This document shows positions 1,895 through 12,755 of a stretch of 64,000 bases of DNA, in pieces. Source of the stretch: Mesorhizobium sp. Its GTDB lineage: Bacteria > Pseudomonadota > Alphaproteobacteria > Rhizobiales > Rhizobiaceae. A program made the position numbers and the translations under genes. The stretch is from the NCBI RefSeq assembly GCF_024710845.1, contig NZ_JANJTZ010000053.1, positions 62,001 to 126,000 of the forward strand, given 5' to 3'. Each line of letters begins with the position of its first letter. The stretch's first letter is position 1. Below the pieces are notes generated by a model, which saw nothing but the letters and a program-made list of their open reading frames with translations, was not told the DNA's origin and ran no database searches.

Positions 1895-2410
1895 TCACTC
1901 CTTCCACCAGGACCCATCTTCGGTCAGTTTTTCGATGCCGCTCGCATCGAGGCCGGTAAGATGGCTCGCCACCTTGACGTTGCGGATCGTCAGATCCGGG
2001 GCGATCTCCGCCAACGGTACAAGAACGAAAGCGCGCAGGAACATCCGTGGATGCGGTATTTCCAGCCCGAGTTCCTTCACCGATCGCGTTCCGTACAGGA
2101 GCACGTCGATGTCGATCAGTCTTGGGCCGAAGCGTTCGCCGCGAACCCGTTTAAGCTGGATTTCGGTATCGAGGCAGAGATCAAGAAGCGCCTTCGGCGA
2201 TCGTTGGGTTCGCACTTCGGCCACGGCGTTCAGAAATGGCGGCTGGTCGAGCTTGCCCCACGGTGGGGTGCGGTAGAGCGAAGACACTCTGGCGATGTCG
2301 GTCATCCTGTCGGCGTCGATCGCGCGCAGGGCTTTCGTCATCGCCGTCCGAGGATCGCCGATATTGCCGCCAAGGCCCAGATAGGCCACCTCCTCACCGA
2401 GGCCAGGCAA
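1895..2410 (-). CDS. folK: 2-amino-4-hydroxy-6-hydroxymethyldihydropteridine pyrophosphokinase
   Basis: HPPK transfers pyrophosphate from ATP to 6-hydroxymethyl-7,8-dihydropterin, the step before dihydropteroate synthase in folate synthesis. The 171-residue protein shows the N-terminal YLGLGGNIGD, the RTPPWG loop and FGPRLIDIDVLLYG, which carries the paired metal-binding aspartates. IPHPRMFLRAFVL then matches the C-terminal family motif. It is the last gene of folP-folB-folK; its start overlaps folB by 17 bases. It converges with the secreted unknown gene with no bases between the stops. Confidence 0.97.
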   Translation of the reverse strand: MPGLGEEVAYLGLGGNIGDPRTAMTKALRAIDADRMTDIARVSSLYRTPPWGKLDQPPFLNAVAEVRTQRSPKALLDLCLDTEIQLKRVRGERFGPRLIDIDVLLYGTRSVKELGLEIPHPRMFLRAFVLVPLAEIAPDLTIRNVKVASHLTGLDASGIEKLTEDGSWWKE

Positions 2411-2756
2411 CGGTCACCTCGACATGATCCAGAACTCCGTTCACGGGTGCGTTCGGTTTCCTGATGGTGATGGCCGCCTGTACAATCATGGGAAACCGGT
2501 CGCACAAGGATCTGCCGATCTCCTGCGCCAGCGCCTCGATCAGAAATCTGCGCCGCCCGGTAACGATCTGTTCGATCAGGCTGAAAGCCGCGCCGTAGTC
2601 GACAGTCTCCGCGATACGATCCCGATCAAGCGCAGCATCGGCATCGACGGTCAGTTCGGCATCGACGTAGAAGCGCTGTCCCATGCGCTCCTCCTCGTCA
2701 TGGACCCCATGCCGCGCAAAGAACGCGCAATTCCTGAGCCGGATCACATAGCTCAT
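2394..2756 (-). CDS. folB: Dihydroneopterin aldolase
   Basis: FolB cleaves 7,8-dihydroneopterin to 6-hydroxymethyl-dihydropterin and glycolaldehyde. The 120-residue length is typical. The sequence shows RNCAFFARHGVHDEEERMGQ, where FARHGV-EER is the family signature at the pterin site, and ITIRKPNAPV near the C-terminus. The ATG overlaps the folP TGA in an ATGA junction and the 3' end overlaps folK by 17 bases. The three folate genes therefore form one tightly coupled operon. Confidence 0.97.
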   Translation of the reverse strand: MSYVIRLRNCAFFARHGVHDEEERMGQRFYVDAELTVDADAALDRDRIAETVDYGAAFSLIEQIVTGRRRFLIEALAQEIGRSLCDRFPMIVQAAITIRKPNAPVNGVLDHVEVTVAWPR

Positions 2757-3601
2757 GATGTCGGGGAGCCTCCCTGACTCCGCAGAATCGCATCCGCCAG
2801 CTTCAACGCGTCGACGGATGACGCTACGTCATGCACCCTGAAGATGGAGGCTCCACGTAACCGGAGGATGGCGCTGGAGACAGCGGTCGCCGTGTCACGC
2901 TGGTCGACCGGACGTCCCGTGACATGGCCCAGGAATCGCTTCCGCGACGTCCCCACCAGCATCGGATAGCCCAGCCGCAGCAATTCGCCGAAACGGGCAA
3001 TGATCTCGATGTTCTCATCCGGGTCTTTGGCAAAGCCGAAGCCGGGATCGAGAACGACCGCTTCGTCCGGTACGCCGGCCGCGCGGGCGATTTCGATCGA
3101 ACGCTGGAAGAAGGTCAATTGATCATCGATCGGATCGGGGAGCCTGTCTCGATCCCGGCCATTGTGCATCGCCACCAGGCCGCATCCGCTGCGCGCTGCA
3201 AGCAGGGCGATGCCCTCCTCGCCCTGCAGCCCCCCGATATCGTTGATGATATGGGCACCGGCATCGATCGCGATCCGGGCGGTCTCGGCACGGTAAGTGT
3301 CTACCGAGATGATGATCTGCGGATGACGTGCCAGCTCCGCTACCACGGGAATCACGCGCCGCTGCTCTTCCAGCGCGGTGATCGATTCGCCTCCCGGCCG
3401 GGTCGATTCGCCACCCACATCGACGACTTCGGCGCCTGCCGATCGGAGATCCAGGGCAAGCTTGACCGCTGCCTCGATCGTCTCGACCCTGCCGCCGTCT
3501 GAAAAACTGTCCGGCGTGACGTTGACGATTCCCATGACGACGGCCGTGCTGCCGAAGGCGATCTGCCGACCGTGCGCTAGCGACCAGATTCTTCGTCCCA
3601 T
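2753..3601 (-). CDS. folP: Dihydropteroate synthase
   Basis: DHPS condenses 6-hydroxymethyl-dihydropterin pyrophosphate with p-aminobenzoate and is the sulfonamide target. Visible motifs are GIVNVTPDSFSDGG, VVDVGGESTRPG, SVDTYRAE, NDIGG, DPGFGFAK and GTSRKRFLG, covering the pterin, pABA and phosphate sites. I chose the ATG giving MGRRIWSLAHG (282 residues), which matches the usual family length. In-frame starts at 3640 (ATG) and 3658 (TTG) would add 13-19 residues, and no start has an obvious ribosome site. First gene of folP-folB-folK. Confidence 0.95.
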   Translation of the reverse strand: MGRRIWSLAHGRQIAFGSTAVVMGIVNVTPDSFSDGGRVETIEAAVKLALDLRSAGAEVVDVGGESTRPGGESITALEEQRRVIPVVAELARHPQIIISVDTYRAETARIAIDAGAHIINDIGGLQGEEGIALLAARSGCGLVAMHNGRDRDRLPDPIDDQLTFFQRSIEIARAAGVPDEAVVLDPGFGFAKDPDENIEIIARFGELLRLGYPMLVGTSRKRFLGHVTGRPVDQRDTATAVSSAILRLRGASIFRVHDVASSVDALKLADAILRSQGGSPTS

Positions 3602-3736
3602 GGTTTTCGTACGACCGTTGGAAAAGTGGTGTTTGCGCATATCGGATAGCCAATGCAACGAAATTCATCACGAACTCGTGAACACGCTGGGGAAACCGGG
3701 ATTGCCGTTCGCAGCAGGCTATCGCATGGTTCGGCC

Positions 3737-5980: not shown

Positions 5981-6301
5981 CTATGCCTGACGCTCGGGGA
6001 TCCTGACGATCAGGCCGTCGAGCGCATCCCTGACCTTGATCTGGCAGGACAGGCGCGAATTCGGCTGAACTTCATAGGCGAAGTCGAGCATGTCCTCCTC
6101 CATCGCTTCCGGTTCGCCGACTTCGTCGGTCCATGCCTCGTCGACATAGACATGGCACGTCGCACAGGCGCATGCGCCGCCGCACTCGGCCTCGATGCCG
6201 GGCACCGCGTTGCGGATCGCGTTCTCCATCACGGTGGAGCCGTTCTCCGCCTCGATATCGAAACGCGTGCCGTCGAAGGCGATGTAGGTCAGCTTTGTCA
6301 T
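5981..6301 (-). CDS. Adrenodoxin-type 2Fe-2S ferredoxin
   Basis: A 106-residue small electron carrier. The cluster ligands are Cys40, Cys46, Cys49 and Cys86, matching the vertebrate-type pattern CX5CX2CX36C ([12 protein letters not shown], then RLSCQ). An extra Cys44 lies inside the loop. The acidic helix [12 protein letters not shown] is the usual docking surface for a ferredoxin reductase or partner enzyme. Possible partners include iron-sulfur assembly, cytochrome P450 or heme A synthesis; none is encoded next to it. It lies 67 bases downstream of hpt on the same strand and may be co-transcribed. Confidence 0.93.
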
Positions 6302-6368: not shown

Positions 6369-6743
6369 TCAGCGGCTGATCGACGCGATGAAATCCTTCA
6401 CCTCGTCGATTCGCGCGGCCAGATGCAGCAGCAGCGATTTGTCATCGGGATCGTGCTCGATCTCGGTCGCGGTCTTCGCAACTCCGAACGCTCCGATCCC
6501 CGAGGCCGAGCCCCGCAAGCCGTGTGCGAGGAATTTCCGTTCCGAAGCGTTGGCGCTCGAGATCCGATCGCGAACCATGGTCGCCTGCTGGACGAAAAGT
6601 GCCAGCACCTCGCGTTCAAGATCCCGGTCTCCGAGTGTTTGTTTTGCCAGGTGCACGAGATCGACCGGCCGCGTGCGCGAGGGCGGGCATTCCTCTCCGC
6701 CGGGATTGGCAAAGGCCACTGTCTGAAGATTCGCTTGCGGCAT
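6369..6743 (-). CDS. Orphan Hpt (histidine phosphotransfer) domain protein
   Basis: The internal ATG gives 124 residues: a disordered N-terminal 25 residues and one Hpt four-helix bundle. The phospho-accepting histidine is His74 in LAHGLRGSASGIGAFGVA, which follows the H-x-L-[KR]-G-S-A pattern. No kinase or receiver domain is attached and none is encoded nearby, so its partners are unknown. The 36 extra residues upstream in the ORF are not domain-like. It is divergent from the giant coiled-coil gene across 279 bases and upstream of ferredoxin. Confidence 0.85.
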   Translation of the reverse strand: MPQANLQTVAFANPGGEECPPSRTRPVDLVHLAKQTLGDRDLEREVLALFVQQATMVRDRISSANASERKFLAHGLRGSASGIGAFGVAKTATEIEHDPDDKSLLLHLAARIDEVKDFIASISR

Positions 6744-7022
6744 GCGCCCGGTCCCGATGTGCTCTGATGGAACAAACTTAGAGGAAGGCGACCAACAAGC
6801 CGTTAACGACGCTGGACGGCAATAGGGCCTCGGCCATGCCGATTTTCCCATATCCGTCGCGTTGTTAACCTTATGTTTAAAGTTTTACACATGGGTTGGA
6901 ATGCAGGTTTCAATTGCCGGGTCGTGCCATTACGATACGAGCACGTGTAATTTCGCGTTGCGCGCGGGCTGTGGGGAGCCGGAAACGGTTGGGTCGCGCA
7001 CTTAGTAGAGGGTTGTAGCTGC
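6744..7022. promoter_or_regulatory. Divergent intergenic region between hpt and the giant coiled-coil gene
   Basis: These 279 bases hold no convincing gene and must contain both divergent promoters. It includes three TTAA cores at 6803-6806, 6865-6868 and 6877-6880. The last two are separated by 8 bases, in TTAACCTTATGTTTAA. This is close to, but not the same as, the CtrA consensus TTAA-N7-TTAA known from alphaproteobacteria. A GAGGG about 11 bases before the ATG at 7023 is a loose ribosome site. Confidence 0.4.
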
Positions 7023-10000
7023 ATGGCGCGTAAACCAAACACCACGTCTCCCATCGACCGCGACGTGGACAAGGAACTCGAAAAGGCCCTCGAATTCGAC
7101 CTCAACGGCGTTGAGGAGATCGACTTCTCCTCGTCGATGGATGAACTCGAGGCGCAGATATCGCAGGCCGCCGACGACCTCGTCAAGGAAAGCCGCGGCG
7201 GCACGACATCCGCCAGCCCCCAGGCAGCATCCACGGGCTCCAGCAGTTCCCAGACCGCGACCGCCTCGCGCTCGGCCCCCAATGCTGCCGGCAAGGCGAC
7301 GGCGAGCACTTCCAAGTCGGCGGCAAACACGCCTGCGGCCCCCTCGACTGCAAGCGCCGGGTCGGGCGCCAGGAAGGGCGAGCCGCTTCGCCCCGTCGAG
7401 GCACCCGCTTCGTCGTCGGCTCCTGGGCCGATCTCGTTCCAGCCCGCCAATGACGACCGTCAGCGCGAGTATCAGTCTGTCCAGCAGTCTCTGGCACGCG
7501 GGACATCGCGCACGCTTTCGGTTTCCATGGCGCTTCTCAGCGTAGCGTGGATCGCAGGCGGGCTCGCTCTCGGCCACGTTCTCTACGCGCCGCAGATATG
7601 GGCGATCCGCTCGATGCAGCAGCTTCTTGCCATGCCGCAGGTGATCGCGCTCGCCATTGGGATCGTCGTGCCGCTGCTCCTGTTCTGGGCGTTCGCCGCG
7701 ATGATGCGTCGCGCGCAGGAGATGCGCCTCGCCGCACAGTCGATCGCCGAAGCGGCATTCCGCCTCACCGAGCCCGAGAACCTGGCCGAAGACCGTGTCC
7801 GCAAGGTCAGCCAGGCGGTCCGCCGCGAAGTCCAGGCCATGGGCGAAGGGATCGAGCGCACGCTCGCACGTGCGGTCGAACTCGAGACGCTGGTTCATAC
7901 CGAGGTCAACGAACTCGAGCGTGCCTACAGCGAAAACGAAATGCGTATCCGCTCGCTCGTCGACGGGCTCGGCAGCGAGCGCGAAGCGGTGATCACGCAT
8001 GCGGAGCGTGTGCGCGCCTCGATCTCCGGCGCTCACGAGCTGCTGAAGGAGCAGCTCACCTCCTCGAGCACCGTCATCCACGACAGCGTCGCCGATGCGT
8101 CGACCCGGCTGACCTCGATGATTTCCGGTTCGGGCGAAATACTGGTCAATCGCATCAACGACAGCGGCCGCGCGATCTACTCGGCGATCGATGAGCGGAT
8201 GGACACGATCTCCGATCGGATCATCACATCGGGCGAAGCGTTCGCCAGCCTCCTCGACACGCGTATCGCCACCCTCACGGACCGTACCGACGAAGCCTCT
8301 CGTGCCCTGTCGGATATGCTCGACAGCCGCACCTCCGACATGGTGTCCCTCCTCGGTGGCACGTCCCGCACGCTGGCGGAAGAGTTCGATTCGCGCCTTG
8401 CCGGCATCGAGCGCACTCTGGCCGAGCGCGGGCAGACGCTGATCGGCGAATTCGAGACACGTGTCCAAGCGCTGGACCAGGGCACCGCCACACTCAACGC
8501 CGCGCTCGAGGCGCGCGCCCGCCAGATCAACGAGACCCTCATCGAGCGTGCCCGCGAGATCGCAGGCGCCTTCAGCGCCGGCAAGGAAGGCATGGCCGGG
8601 GTCATCGAGGAAACCAAGTCTCGCATCGGCGCGGATCTCGCCGAACTCGTCATGTCCACCTCGACGATGCTCGAAGGCCGGGCGAATGAGTTCACCCAGC
8701 GCCTCGAAGGTGGCCGACACCTCATCTCGACGGCACTCGACACGGATCTCGCCCGTCTCGCGGATGCGCGCGCCGCGCTCGACGAAACCGTCGGCGCCCA
8801 TGCGATGAAGCTCGCCGAAGGCCGCAACTACCTGTCCAGCATCCTGCAGGAGGATCTGGCGCGCGTCGAGGAAACCCGCGCGGAACTCGACCAGCGCCTG
8901 GAGGGCCACGCCCAGATGCTGGCGCAGGGCCGCACCGTGCTCACCAACGCCCTGGACGACGACATGCGTCGCCTTGCCGAAGCCCGGGCCGAAATCGACG
9001 CCCGGATTGCCGACCATACGGCGACCCTCGACGAAGGCCGCAGCTTCCTGTCCCGGGTTCTCGATGAAGACCTGGCGAAGCTGGAGCAGATCCGCGGCGA
9101 GATCGACAGGCGCGTCGAAGCGCATTCGCACCTTCTCTCCGAGGGACGGAGCGTTCTGTCGGGCGTCATGGACGAGGATCTTGCGAAACTCGCCCAGGCT
9201 CGGGCCGCGATCGACGCGTCGGTGGAACGCCATGTCGAGAAGCTGGCCGAAGGCCGCGATATCATGACCCACGCGCTGCAGTCGGATCTGGAGAAGCTTG
9301 CCGCGACACGCGCCGAGATCGACAGCGCGATCCAGAGCGGCATCGCGCGCCTCGCCGACGGACAGGGCGACGTCGGTCAGGCCCTCTCGCTGGAGATGGC
9401 GAAGATAGAAGACGCATTCCGCTCCCAGATCGGAGTCGTCGAAGGGCGCACGCAGGCCATTGAAGCCGCATTGGCCAATGGCGTCGAGAATGTACGCACG
9501 GTTCTCGAGCGGAGCGCGGGAGCGGTCGCCGGTGCGCTGCGCGACCGGGTTCTGGAAATCACGGCGGCCCTCACCGAGGACGCCGGCCAGGCCTTCCAGG
9601 ACGCGGACCAGAAGATCGCCGAACGCATCGATCTCGCCAATACCGCCTTTTCGGCGCGCGCGGCCGAGATCGCAAAGGCATTCGAAGAGGTGGACGGCAG
9701 GATCGTCGGCCGTATCGACCAGGTGTCGGATGCAATTTCGCGCCGCACGGACGAATTCGCTCTGACGATCGATCATGTCGACGGCAAGCTTGCCGGGCGG
9801 ATCGACGCCGCTTCCGGGATCATCGCGAACCGGGCCGACGAGCTCTCGCGCGCCTTCGAACAGGTCGACGAGAAGCTCGGCGAGCGCATCCAGGAAGTGA
9901 CCACCGTGGTGGCGACGCGCGTTGGAGATCTCTCGCGCGCAGTCGCGAAGGTTGACGAACGGCTTTCGGAGCGGATCGATCAGACCTCTTCGACGATCGC

Positions 10001-12755
10001 AGCACGGTCCGACGATCTGGTGCGCGTCATCGACCAGGCGGACGCCAGGTTCAGCGAACGCGTCGAAATGGCATCCGGCATGATCTCGGCCCGCGCCGAC
10101 GACCTTGCCCGTGCCGTCGAGCAGATCGACGGCCGGCTGGTCGAGCGGATCGACCTGGTGACCAGCGCCGCCGACGCGCGCGCCGACGATCTCTCGAAGA
10201 CCATCCAGCAGATCGACGGCAAGATTTCCGAACGCATCGTCCTCGCTTCCGATCTCATCAACGCGCGGGCGAACGACCTGTCGAACACGATCAGCCAGGT
10301 CGACGACCGGCTCGCCCAGCATGTCGACATCGCCGCCGACAAGCTCACCGAGCGCGCCCAGGATCTGGTGCGCACCTTCGATGATGCCGATTCGAAGATC
10401 GTCGAACGCATCGACTACGCTTCGGGTCTGTTCAACGCCCGGGCCGAGGATGTCGCCCGCACTTTCGCGAACGTCGATCGCGCAATCGAGGATCGCCTGA
10501 ACGTCGCCGCCAGCACCATCACCGAAAAGGTGGGAGAGCTCGACCGCACCTTCAGCGACGCCGACCAAAAGTTCGCCGAACGCATCGACCTCGCGGCGGC
10601 CGCGATGGCCGCGCGCGCCGATGACCTGTCGCGGGCTTTCGACAATGTCGATCAGAAGCTCGTCGACCGGATCGACTATGCGGGCAGCGCGCTTTCCGCC
10701 CGTGCGGAGGACTTCGCCGGCGTCTTTGACGCAGCCGACCGCAAGCTCGCCATGCGTCTCGAGGAAGGTTCGGCCGCGCTGTCCGATCACGCCGACGGCA
10801 TCGTGCGCGCTTTCGACGATGTCGACCGCAAGCTGGTCGAGCGTACCGAGCAGACTGCGGAGGAACTGCACTCGCGGGCCCGCGCCATCGAGGACACGCT
10901 CGTCAACATCGAGCACCGCCTCGGCGACAGCGCCGATTCGATCGTTGCGCAGATGGGCAACCAGATCGATTCGGTCGAGCGTCGTCTGGCGGAAGGTGCC
11001 GAACTCGTCGGCCAGAAGCTGATCGAACAGGTCTCGGTCTCCGAGGCTCAGCTCGTGTCGCGTGCAAACGTCATCGCCGAAACCTTCGCGGCGGTGAACA
11101 AGCATATCGGCCAGCGCACCAACGAGGCCGCTTCCACCTTCGATGCGCACACGCGCGAGCTGAGCGAGATGCTCGCCAATCGCACGGCCGAGATCGGCCG
11201 CGTGCTCGACGAACAGGCCAAGCCCCTCGTCGAGAAGTTCTCCGAGAGCGGCGGCGAACTGCAGCGCAGCCTCGAGGAGGCGACCCATGCCGCGACGGAG
11301 CGTCTGCGCACCGAGAATGCGGCCCTGGTCAACGCGCTCGCAAGCCGCACCGCCGAGACTCTGGCCGCGGTCGACAAGGCGCGCAACAGCCTTGGCGAAG
11401 GCGTTGCGGACCTGATCGACAGGCTGGCATCGTCGAACGCCCAGCTCGGACATCTGATCAACGTGGCGTCCAACAACCTCTCCGAGCTCGAGGAGCGGCT
11501 CTCGGGAACGACCCATTCCTTCGCCACCTCGGCGGAGAAGGCGGCGCAGACCTTCTCGAGTTCCGCGCGTCTCATCGACGTCAACGCGACGAAACTCACC
11601 GAGCTGTCGTCCAGCACGCTCAAGGACATCGCCGCGATCGCGCATCGCTTCGACGACCACAGCCGGGTGCTGGCCTCGGCGTCCGACCTCCTCGGTTCGG
11701 CGCAGTCCAACCTCGCCTCGACGCTCGACGACCGCCAGTCGGCACTCGAGACGCTGGCCGTCGGCCTCGTCAAGAAGTCCGAGGACATCGAGCGTGTCAT
11801 GCGCTCCTTCGAGAACCTCGTGGAACGCGCCTTCGACAAGGCCGATGGGCGTGCCCGCGAGACGACCGAGCACATGCGCAACGCCGTCTCGGAGGTGGTG
11901 GAATCCGCGACCCAACGCTTCGCCGATGCGACGCAGGAAATCCGCCGCTCTGCCAGCACCATCCGCACTGAGCTGGAAGAGACCCGCAACGAGTTGCGCA
12001 AGGGTGTCCTCGACCTGCCGGAAGAGACCAAAGAGACGACCTCGGCAATGCGTCGCGCAGTCGCCGAACAGATCAACGCGCTCAAGGAACTGTCCGACAT
12101 CGTGGCGCGCTCGGGCCGCACGTTCGACAATGGCGGCAAGTCTGCGTCGCTGCCACGGTCGGCGCCGCCCGCTGCCCGCCTCGACGCCCCGGCTCCCCGC
12201 GCGCCTGAGCCACAGAAGCGTCCGCCGGTTGAGCCGCAACGCGCCGAAGCGCCCCGCCCTGCAGCGCCGCGTGCGCCCGCTCCGCGGCAGCCGGAACCCG
12301 CCCAGGGCGGCTGGGTCAGCAACCTGCTGCGCCGTGCCTCGGAAGAAGGTGAAGCGGAACCTGTTGCGCCCGCCCCTGCCCGTGCCGAGGCGCCCCAGCG
12401 GTCGCCGCTGCACGTCGTCGAATCGCTCAACTCGCTGTCGGTCGATATCGCGCGCGCGATCGATCACGACGCGTCGATCGAACTGTGGGACAGGTATCGC
12501 CGGGGCGAGCGCAATGTGTTCACCCGCCGGCTCTACACGCTGAAAGGCCAGCAGACGTTCGACGAGATCCGTCGCAAATACGAGGCCGAGCCCGAGTTCC
12601 GCTCGGCGGTGGACCGCTACTGCGACGACTTCGAACGCCTGATCGCAGATGTCACCCGGACGGACCGCGATTCGATGATGGCGCAGACCTATCTCTCTTC
12701 CGACACCGGCAAGGTCTACACCATGCTGGCGCATGCGAGCGGACGCCTGAAATAG
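7023..12755 (+). CDS. Giant membrane-anchored coiled-coil protein, GPR/RgsE-like polar growth factor
   Basis: This 1910-residue protein has an acidic N-terminus (FDLNGVEEIDFSSSMDELEAQ), a Ser/Ala/Pro linker (60-140) and two membrane segments at about 164-186 and 206-227. Over a thousand residues of helical coiled coil follow, containing six 36-residue repeats (575-790) and fifteen 29-residue repeats (868-1302). A Pro/Ala-rich linker (about 1709-1793) leads to a folded C-terminal domain (about 1796-1910, RRGERNVFTRRLYTLKGQQTF). This matches what I know of Agrobacterium GPR and Sinorhizobium RgsE, apolipoprotein-like proteins of about 2100 residues that ring the growth pole; automated annotation often calls such proteins kinesin-like. 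The family assignment is inference from architecture. A strong terminator follows. Confidence 0.75.
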   Translation: MARKPNTTSPIDRDVDKELEKALEFDLNGVEEIDFSSSMDELEAQISQAADDLVKESRGGTTSASPQAASTGSSSSQTATASRSAPNAAGKATASTSKSAANTPAAPSTASAGSGARKGEPLRPVEAPASSSAPGPISFQPANDDRQREYQSVQQSLARGTSRTLSVSMALLSVAWIAGGLALGHVLYAPQIWAIRSMQQLLAMPQVIALAIGIVVPLLLFWAFAAMMRRAQEMRLAAQSIAEAAFRLTEPENLAEDRVRKVSQAVRREVQAMGEGIERTLARAVELETLVHTEVNELERAYSENEMRIRSLVDGLGSEREAVITHAERVRASISGAHELLKEQLTSSSTVIHDSVADASTRLTSMISGSGEILVNRINDSGRAIYSAIDERMDTISDRIITSGEAFASLLDTRIATLTDRTDEASRALSDMLDSRTSDMVSLLGGTSRTLAEEFDSRLAGIERTLAERGQTLIGEFETRVQALDQGTATLNAALEARARQINETLIERAREIAGAFSAGKEGMAGVIEETKSRIGADLAELVMSTSTMLEGRANEFTQRLEGGRHLISTALDTDLARLADARAALDETVGAHAMKLAEGRNYLSSILQEDLARVEETRAELDQRLEGHAQMLAQGRTVLTNALDDDMRRLAEARAEIDARIADHTATLDEGRSFLSRVLDEDLAKLEQIRGEIDRRVEAHSHLLSEGRSVLSGVMDEDLAKLAQARAAIDASVERHVEKLAEGRDIMTHALQSDLEKLAATRAEIDSAIQSGIARLADGQGDVGQALSLEMAKIEDAFRSQIGVVEGRTQAIEAALANGVENVRTVLERSAGAVAGALRDRVLEITAALTEDAGQAFQDADQKIAERIDLANTAFSARAAEIAKAFEEVDGRIVGRIDQVSDAISRRTDEFALTIDHVDGKLAGRIDAASGIIANRADELSRAFEQVDEKLGERIQEVTTVVATRVGDLSRAVAKVDERLSERIDQTSSTIAARSDDLVRVIDQADARFSERVEMASGMISARADDLARAVEQIDGRLVERIDLVTSAADARADDLSKTIQQIDGKISERIVLASDLINARANDLSNTISQVDDRLAQHVDIAADKLTERAQDLVRTFDDADSKIVERIDYASGLFNARAEDVARTFANVDRAIEDRLNVAASTITEKVGELDRTFSDADQKFAERIDLAAAAMAARADDLSRAFDNVDQKLVDRIDYAGSALSARAEDFAGVFDAADRKLAMRLEEGSAALSDHADGIVRAFDDVDRKLVERTEQTAEELHSRARAIEDTLVNIEHRLGDSADSIVAQMGNQIDSVERRLAEGAELVGQKLIEQVSVSEAQLVSRANVIAETFAAVNKHIGQRTNEAASTFDAHTRELSEMLANRTAEIGRVLDEQAKPLVEKFSESGGELQRSLEEATHAATERLRTENAALVNALASRTAETLAAVDKARNSLGEGVADLIDRLASSNAQLGHLINVASNNLSELEERLSGTTHSFATSAEKAAQTFSSSARLIDVNATKLTELSSSTLKDIAAIAHRFDDHSRVLASASDLLGSAQSNLASTLDDRQSALETLAVGLVKKSEDIERVMRSFENLVERAFDKADGRARETTEHMRNAVSEVVESATQRFADATQEIRRSASTIRTELEETRNELRKGVLDLPEETKETTSAMRRAVAEQINALKELSDIVARSGRTFDNGGKSASLPRSAPPAARLDAPAPRAPEPQKRPPVEPQRAEAPRPAAPRAPAPRQPEPAQGGWVSNLLRRASEEGEAEPVAPAPARAEAPQRSPLHVVESLNSLSVDIARAIDHDASIELWDRYRRGERNVFTRRLYTLKGQQTFDEIRRKYEAEPEFRSAVDRYCDDFERLIADVTRTDRDSMMAQTYLSSDTGKVYTMLAHASGRLK
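8745..9392 (+). repeat. Six tandem 36-residue (108-base) coding repeats
   Basis: Residues 575-790 of the giant protein consist of six in-register 36-residue units. Each has the form DLAxLxxxRAEIDxRxxxHxxxLAEGRxxLSxxLxE, for example DLARVEETRAELDQRLEGHA then QMLAQGRTVL. Positions of Leu, Arg, Asp and the EGR triplet are the best conserved; the last unit is degenerate. The spacing is constant with no insertions. At the DNA level the copies are diverged, so this is an old protein repeat, not a recent satellite. Confidence 0.85.
9624..10928 (+). repeat. Fifteen tandem 29-residue (87-base) coding repeats
   Basis: Residues 868-1302 are fifteen uninterrupted 29-residue units close to RIDxASxxIxARADDLxRAFxxVDxKLxE, for example RIDLAAAAMAARADDL then SRAFDNVDQKLVD. 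I counted the register unit by unit and found no length change. Arg1, Ile2, Ala/Arg near 11-13, Asp14-Asp15, Asp24 and Leu27 are the steady positions. The unit is amphipathic and helical, resembling apolipoprotein A-type repeats. A degenerate unit precedes the block. Confidence 0.88.

Follow-up and report, generated by a model that had tools for sequence, protein, structure and literature searches.

The hpt locus and its neighborhood

The window analyzed here, i.e., the whole stretch of 64,000 nucleotides of the Mesorhizobium sp. genome G000 (C58:62001-126000), contains a small gene, hpt, placed between a ferredoxin gene (fdx) on the same strand and a giant gene (gpr) in divergent orientation. 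The following features are of relevance:

5981..6301, minus strand: fdx, 2Fe-2S ferredoxin directly downstream of hpt (PF00111; linkage in 105/113 loci)
6369..6743, minus strand: hpt, ShpA-family stand-alone histidine phosphotransfer protein, 124 aa (translation, PF01627, profile vs. 2ooc, AF2 model, Foldseek)
6522..6524, minus strand: codon of the predicted phospho-accepting His74 (computed from the translation; conserved in 116/120 homologs)
6802..6807, plus strand: another GTTAAC site in the hpt-gpr intergenic region (sequence)
6864..6880, plus strand: conserved CtrA-like box GTTAACCTTATGTTTAA (motif above threshold in 98/112 hpt-gpr intergenic regions)
6924..6939, plus strand: GTGCCAYTACGATACG, another conserved element, located upstream of gpr (motif above threshold in 53/112 loci)
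7023..12755, plus strand: gpr, GPR/RgsE-like protein of the growth pole ring, 1910 aa (translation; PF01442, 102 bits; C-terminal domain conserved)

The product of hpt matches PF01627 at 24.6 bits, which is exactly the curated Pfam cut-off, and it is the only protein of the genome that does so (whole-genome search, 5.36 Mb). Its AlphaFold model, built from 78 homologs with a mean pLDDT of 92, has five helices (residues 29-35, 40-61, 66-83, 86-97, and 102-123), and the top Foldseek matches of this model are bacterial, fungal, and plant HPt proteins, Caulobacter ShpA (2ooc) among them, with E-values that are modest (0.002 or higher), which is to be expected of a helical protein this small. A helical bundle and a conserved His in H-x-L-[KR]-G-[SA] are both present, and the claim of the sequence-only reading that this gene encodes an orphan Hpt is thus confirmed by the 124-aa HPt, its PF01627 match, and its HPt-like model. 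An alternative start (ATG at 6851) would give a longer reading; in the homolog alignment, the conserved part sets in at about residues 9-14 of the short version, which favors the start at 6743.

His74 sits within LAHGLRGSASGIGA (translation of 6369..6743, minus strand), a good Hpt motif as originally proposed, and the lack of its conservation among homologs, named at the outset as potential counter-evidence, was not found: the residue is kept in 116 of the 120 homologs of the fuller set. It is also invariant in 78/78 diverse family members of an alignment from which rows known to be His-less had been left out beforehand, and His74 with the surrounding surface motif is among the best conserved positions of Hpt. 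The four homologs without His74 (L111, L088, L114, and L067) comprise changes of H to R, A, and N plus one pseudogene with a TAG stop; all of them come from genomes without the regulator TacA (see below), where such His-less copies appear to be decay in progress. As a side observation, the single PF01627 match in the 5.36 Mb of G000 means that no CheA-type HPt was detected, and this genome may be devoid of a classical chemotaxis kinase.

The divergent neighbor had been taken for a giant polar protein, and the features of GPR and RgsE are indeed found in it: a size of 1910 aa, repeats of the apolipoprotein type (PF01442, 102 bits), a pair of hydrophobic stretches close to the N-terminus (assigned by eye from the translation), and order-wide conservation, with the C-terminal domain present in 147/151 related genomes. 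Apolipoprotein repeats combined with two N-terminal membrane segments have been described for both GPR and RgsE (PMC8262873, PMC7327166). Hpt itself was found in 130/151 genomes of the order, almost always in a single copy, and the suggested check of the neighborhood across Rhizobiales revealed hpt and gpr as divergent neighbors in 115/116 genomes of the order carrying both on one contig. The same pair is kept in 20/21 same-contig genomes outside the order and, among named genomes (mostly Mesorhizobium and relatives), in 71/74 loci with room. Outside the order, GPR-like proteins are mostly of ~700-1000 aa and also divergent from hpt (including L346-L351); GPR may have become giant only later, by expansion.

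On the other side of hpt, fdx is co-oriented and lies no more than 1.5 kb downstream in 105/113 loci, and the MATE gene beyond it is linked in 6/113 loci, i.e., unconserved. In Hpt-less genomes fdx is usually still found beside gpr, and GPR is retained in 19 genomes without Hpt. Since fdx is as conserved a neighbor as gpr and stays after the loss of hpt, the relevant unit is gpr/(hpt)-fdx, an ancient arrangement from which hpt can be lost. The adjacency of hpt to gpr is, by itself, no evidence of Hpt acting on GPR, and adjacency alone as a proof of an Hpt-GPR link was rejected with these same data (fdx equally conserved, GPR persisting without Hpt). In one locus (L422, Mesorhizobium sp. J18), hpt is gone from between gpr and fdx, which point toward one another.

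Similarity of Hpt to ShpA

A family profile of Hpt (A1) retrieved ShpA (2ooc) at E=1e-17, with the next solved protein at 1.5e-5, and a phmmer search with the single Hpt sequence gave 2ooc as the only match among solved proteins. The same entry, assigned to ShpA of Caulobacter crescentus by its title, has the highest target-normalized TM-score in the Foldseek table (0.79). By both profile and phmmer, Hpt is nearer to ShpA than to other HPts of known structure and, as far as sequence can tell, is a further member of the ShpA kind. In Caulobacter, ShpA serves as the go-between of ShkA, a hybrid kinase, and TacA, a sigma-54 regulator, and the ShkA-ShpA-TacA relay, which is activated by c-di-GMP, governs stalk and G1/S genes (PMC7010744).

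Candidate partners of Hpt in the genome

Kinases (PF02518) and receivers (PF00072) were collected from G000. No match to either family is present inside the window (C58:62001-126000), where the earlier remark that no kinase or receiver is encoded nearby therefore holds true; a CckA-like hybrid kinase (G000:C58:55764-59009) is found just outside, 9.4 kb from hpt. Its location near the gpr/hpt-fdx block loosely links a cell-cycle kinase to the growth-pole gene in this genome.

An orphan hybrid kinase encoded at G000:C40:202859-205096, unlinked to hpt, is ShkA-like, with a layout of hydrophobic N-terminal segments, PAS, DHp, CA, pseudo-receiver, and canonical receiver. Among solved proteins it matches ShkA best (6qrj, E=6e-88), in an alignment extending across DHp, CA, pseudo-receiver, and receiver, and its first receiver is without the acidic pair. 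A second hybrid kinase, a multi-PAS protein of 1117 aa (G000:C63:102637-105987), has two receivers and no HPt, and is a possible second donor for Hpt. At least two hybrid kinases of G000 have terminal receivers but no HPt, and the availability of just a single PF01627 protein to serve such kinases was counted in favor of a relay role of Hpt.

A TacA-like orphan regulator (G000:C66:44162-45712) combines REC, Sigma54_activat, and a Fis-type HTH; in S. meliloti, SMc04011 is annotated as tacA (PMC11387232). In G000, the tacA-like gene is followed on the same strand by a DUF882/M15 peptidase gene (positions 2157-3713 and 3851-4999 of L252 = G000:C66:42000-47000), and TTAACCAT, of the CtrA half-site type, is located between the two. 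S. meliloti SMc04010 encodes RgsC, an M15-type polar growth factor that is required for growth (PMC7327166), and the neighboring tags SMc04011 and SMc04010 parallel the tacA-M15 pair of G000. This adjacency was not seen in those TacA loci of other families that have 1.5 kb flanks.

Co-occurrence of Hpt with its candidate partners

Functional (i.e., His74-bearing) Hpt was scored against partner genes in 151 genomes, and all counts are given in the order both/Hpt only/partner only/neither. The p values are from Fisher tests that ignore relatedness, and TacA and kinase calls depend on self-chosen E-value cut-offs (1e-110 and 1e-100) with close paralogs, so that these values are a guide and not exact probabilities. 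Under this reservation, Hpt is tightly associated with the TacA-like regulator, both among the 151 genomes (122/4/2/23, p=6e-21) and outside the home family (52/0/1/7, p=2e-8, most of these genomes representing different families), as well as in a class-wide sample (35/7/14/328, p=2.5e-31). The ShkA-like kinase was detected in 93/126 Hpt genomes vs. 0/25 others (93/33/0/25, p=7e-13), leaving 33 Hpt genomes without a ShkA-like match at the chosen cut-off. As controls, GPR did not co-vary with Hpt (124/2/23/2, p=0.13), and the multi-PAS kinase showed a much weaker association (63/63/3/22, p=3e-4), by which it was rejected as the main partner. The result was stable after dropping small or incomplete genomes.

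A sensitive re-search with the family profile revealed no stand-alone Hpt replacement in Hpt-less genomes. Exceptions to the TacA pattern include G024, G025, and G090 (His-bearing Hpt, no TacA match) and G139 (TacA, no Hpt); in addition, the TacA match of G022 has 44% identity, and the second kinase match of G050 is right at the kinase cut-off. On a rough and poorly resolved ferredoxin tree, losses of Hpt are scattered (~15 parsimony changes), pointing to more than one event. In Caulobacterales, shkA, shpA, and rpoN were reported to be absent along with c-di-GMP and dimorphism genes (PMC12700997), a pattern resembling the co-loss seen here, which could partly reflect a general loss of motility/c-di-GMP genes.

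The hpt-gpr promoter region

The box GTTAACCTTATGTTTAA comprises a half-site TTAACC and a degenerate second half, most often at 8-bp spacing, and it is the sole match in the window (0 expected). Related short sites are enriched between hpt and gpr across genomes: GTTAAC occurs in 89/117 intergenic regions vs. 10.8 expected, and TTAACC or its complement in 108/117 vs. 23 expected. As verified CtrA sites of S. meliloti follow the consensus TAA-N7-TTAAC (PMC3616915) and the spacing here is mostly 8 bp, we infer a CtrA-like site and treat GTTAACCTTATGTTTAA as a putative one. No sigma-54 box was found between hpt and gpr, which makes it unlikely that TacA would drive gpr directly from this region. 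Overall, the position of hpt beside gpr reflects the ancient gpr/hpt-fdx block and, perhaps, a shared cell-cycle promoter control.

Discussion

The analysis presented above supports, as the likely explanation, a role of Hpt as the ShpA-type step of a ShkA-Hpt-TacA-like phosphorelay. This reading is based on the HPt sequence and fold, His74, the similarity to ShpA, the presence of both partners in the genome, and the observed co-occurrence and co-loss; what we infer from it is which way the phosphate flows, which proteins are the partners, and whether growth is affected. In the proposed mechanism, the ShkA-like membrane/PAS hybrid kinase (C40:202859-205096) would autophosphorylate and pass the phosphate to its own C-terminal receiver, from which His74 of Hpt would accept it. 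Hpt would then phosphorylate the receiver of the TacA-like sigma-54 activator (C66:44162-45712), and the phosphorylated regulator would alter transcription of sigma-54-dependent genes.

The sequence-only reading had also raised the possibility of a phosphorelay input to polar growth. The relay part of this idea is supported, in the form of the ShkA-Hpt-TacA type, and support for the polar-growth part is partial: GPR is independent of Hpt (124/126 genomes with Hpt vs. 23/25 without), fdx is equally linked (105/113), and a sigma-54 promoter is missing between hpt and gpr. Nevertheless, the rgsC-like tacA-M15 adjacency and the CtrA-like box are circumstantial indications of a possible growth link.

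Among the alternatives, we regard as a less probable but serious one that Hpt is a hub, serving several Hpt-less hybrid kinases (e.g., the multi-PAS one) or fed by two or more sensors, with TacA as one of several outputs. Such a role would suit the only PF01627 protein of a genome that has at least two HPt-less hybrid kinases with terminal receivers, and it would accommodate the 33 Hpt genomes without a ShkA-like match; the much weaker association of the multi-PAS kinase (63/63/3/22) and the nearly one-to-one relation of TacA to Hpt speak against it.

It appears unlikely that Hpt belongs to a dedicated polar-growth relay, controlling gpr/rgs genes or the growth pole via TacA or via binding to GPR, with the hpt/gpr pair forming one functional unit. 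The conserved divergence of hpt and gpr (115/116 in the order, 20/21 outside), the CtrA-like box between them, and the DUF882/M15 gene after tacA, with its parallel in S. meliloti SMc04011 (PMC11387232) and SMc04010/RgsC (PMC7327166), are all in line with such a relay. Nevertheless, the occurrence of GPR does not follow that of Hpt, with 19 Hpt-less genomes still carrying GPR, fdx is an equally conserved neighbor that mostly stays at the side of gpr where hpt has been lost, the hpt-gpr region is without a sigma-54 box, the tacA-M15 adjacency is unseen in other families' TacA loci with 1.5 kb flanks, and the GPR and Rgs papers mention no Hpt. A broader evolutionary version, which we likewise regard as unlikely, would have the ShkA-Hpt-TacA-like relay ancestral in alphaproteobacterial polar morphogenesis and re-used in Hyphomicrobiales to time unipolar growth, with TacA acting on rgs genes (e.g., the adjoining M15 gene) and hpt/gpr sharing cell-cycle promoter control.

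An input from CckA or from the essential hybrid kinase RdsA, placing Hpt in the CtrA cell-cycle circuit, is very improbable: the CckA-like gene is only 9.4 kb from hpt, but CckA already has its own phosphotransferase, ChpT. Cells depleted of RdsA are known to be defective in shape and polarity, and which protein RdsA exchanges phosphate with is not known (PMC9022086). The query taken as RdsA, R. etli p42e WP_011427883 (gene identity deduced from position and domains), best matches the CckA-like protein (35%), and RdsA was rejected as a partner kinase because no close counterpart of this query is present among the G000 kinases searched. Finally, a degenerate HPt kept for a non-phosphotransfer role (e.g., as a scaffold) would fit the Pfam score barely at the cut-off and the four homologs without His74, but His74 and the surface motif rank among the best conserved positions and His-less copies are confined to genomes where TacA is gone, making this reading extremely improbable.

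Little is known about the signals that feed into polar growth in rhizobia, Agrobacterium, and Brucella, and a search of open-licence literature yielded no description of Hpt, its conserved pairing with gpr, or a Rhizobiales ShkA-ShpA-TacA relay. Should Hpt prove to be ShpA in these bacteria, a hitherto uncharacterized protein would gain a defined place in a relay, between two partners that can be named, and the Caulobacter pathway would turn out to be old and widespread. At the same time, this case is a warning that conserved adjacency to gpr is, by itself, no proof of a growth role.

Comparison with known systems

A side-by-side comparison with known systems places Hpt closest to ShpA. Both are stand-alone HPts of about 110-125 aa that share the motifs VD(F/L)..L..GD....EVLALF..QA and H..KG.A.G.GAF, and the same kind of partner genes (ShkA-like and TacA-like) is present in the genome; identity between them is just 26% (Foldseek alignment), and hpt is located here within the gpr/hpt-fdx block. 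Like ChpT, Hpt would take phosphate from a hybrid kinase and hand it on to response regulators, but ChpT is a kinase-like dimer of another family, whereas Hpt is a small PF01627 HPt. A ChpT-type assignment (histidine-kinase-like dimeric transferase) was rejected, as Pfam gives PF01627 only and the model is of the HPt type.

The candidate kinase shares with ShkA the DHp-CA-pseudoREC-REC architecture and the loss of the acidic pair in REC1; unlike the 6qrj chain of ShkA, it carries hydrophobic N-terminal segments and PAS. Of the c-di-GMP determinants of ShkA, Tyr338 and the DDR linker (PMC7010744), the former is replaced by Phe and the latter is absent, so that the input to this kinase probably differs from the c-di-GMP control of ShkA. 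The candidate regulator resembles TacA (S. meliloti SMc04011) in its REC, Sigma54_activat, and Fis-type HTH and in its co-occurrence with Hpt; apart from this likeness, an M15/DUF882 gene follows the tacA-like gene here, and gpr is without a sigma-54 promoter. The giant neighbor, in turn, is similar to GPR (Agrobacterium Atu1348) and RgsE (S. meliloti SMc00190) in its size of ~2,000 aa, apolipoprotein repeats, two N-terminal membrane segments, and conserved C-terminus, and by its phylogenetic profile it stands outside the relay.
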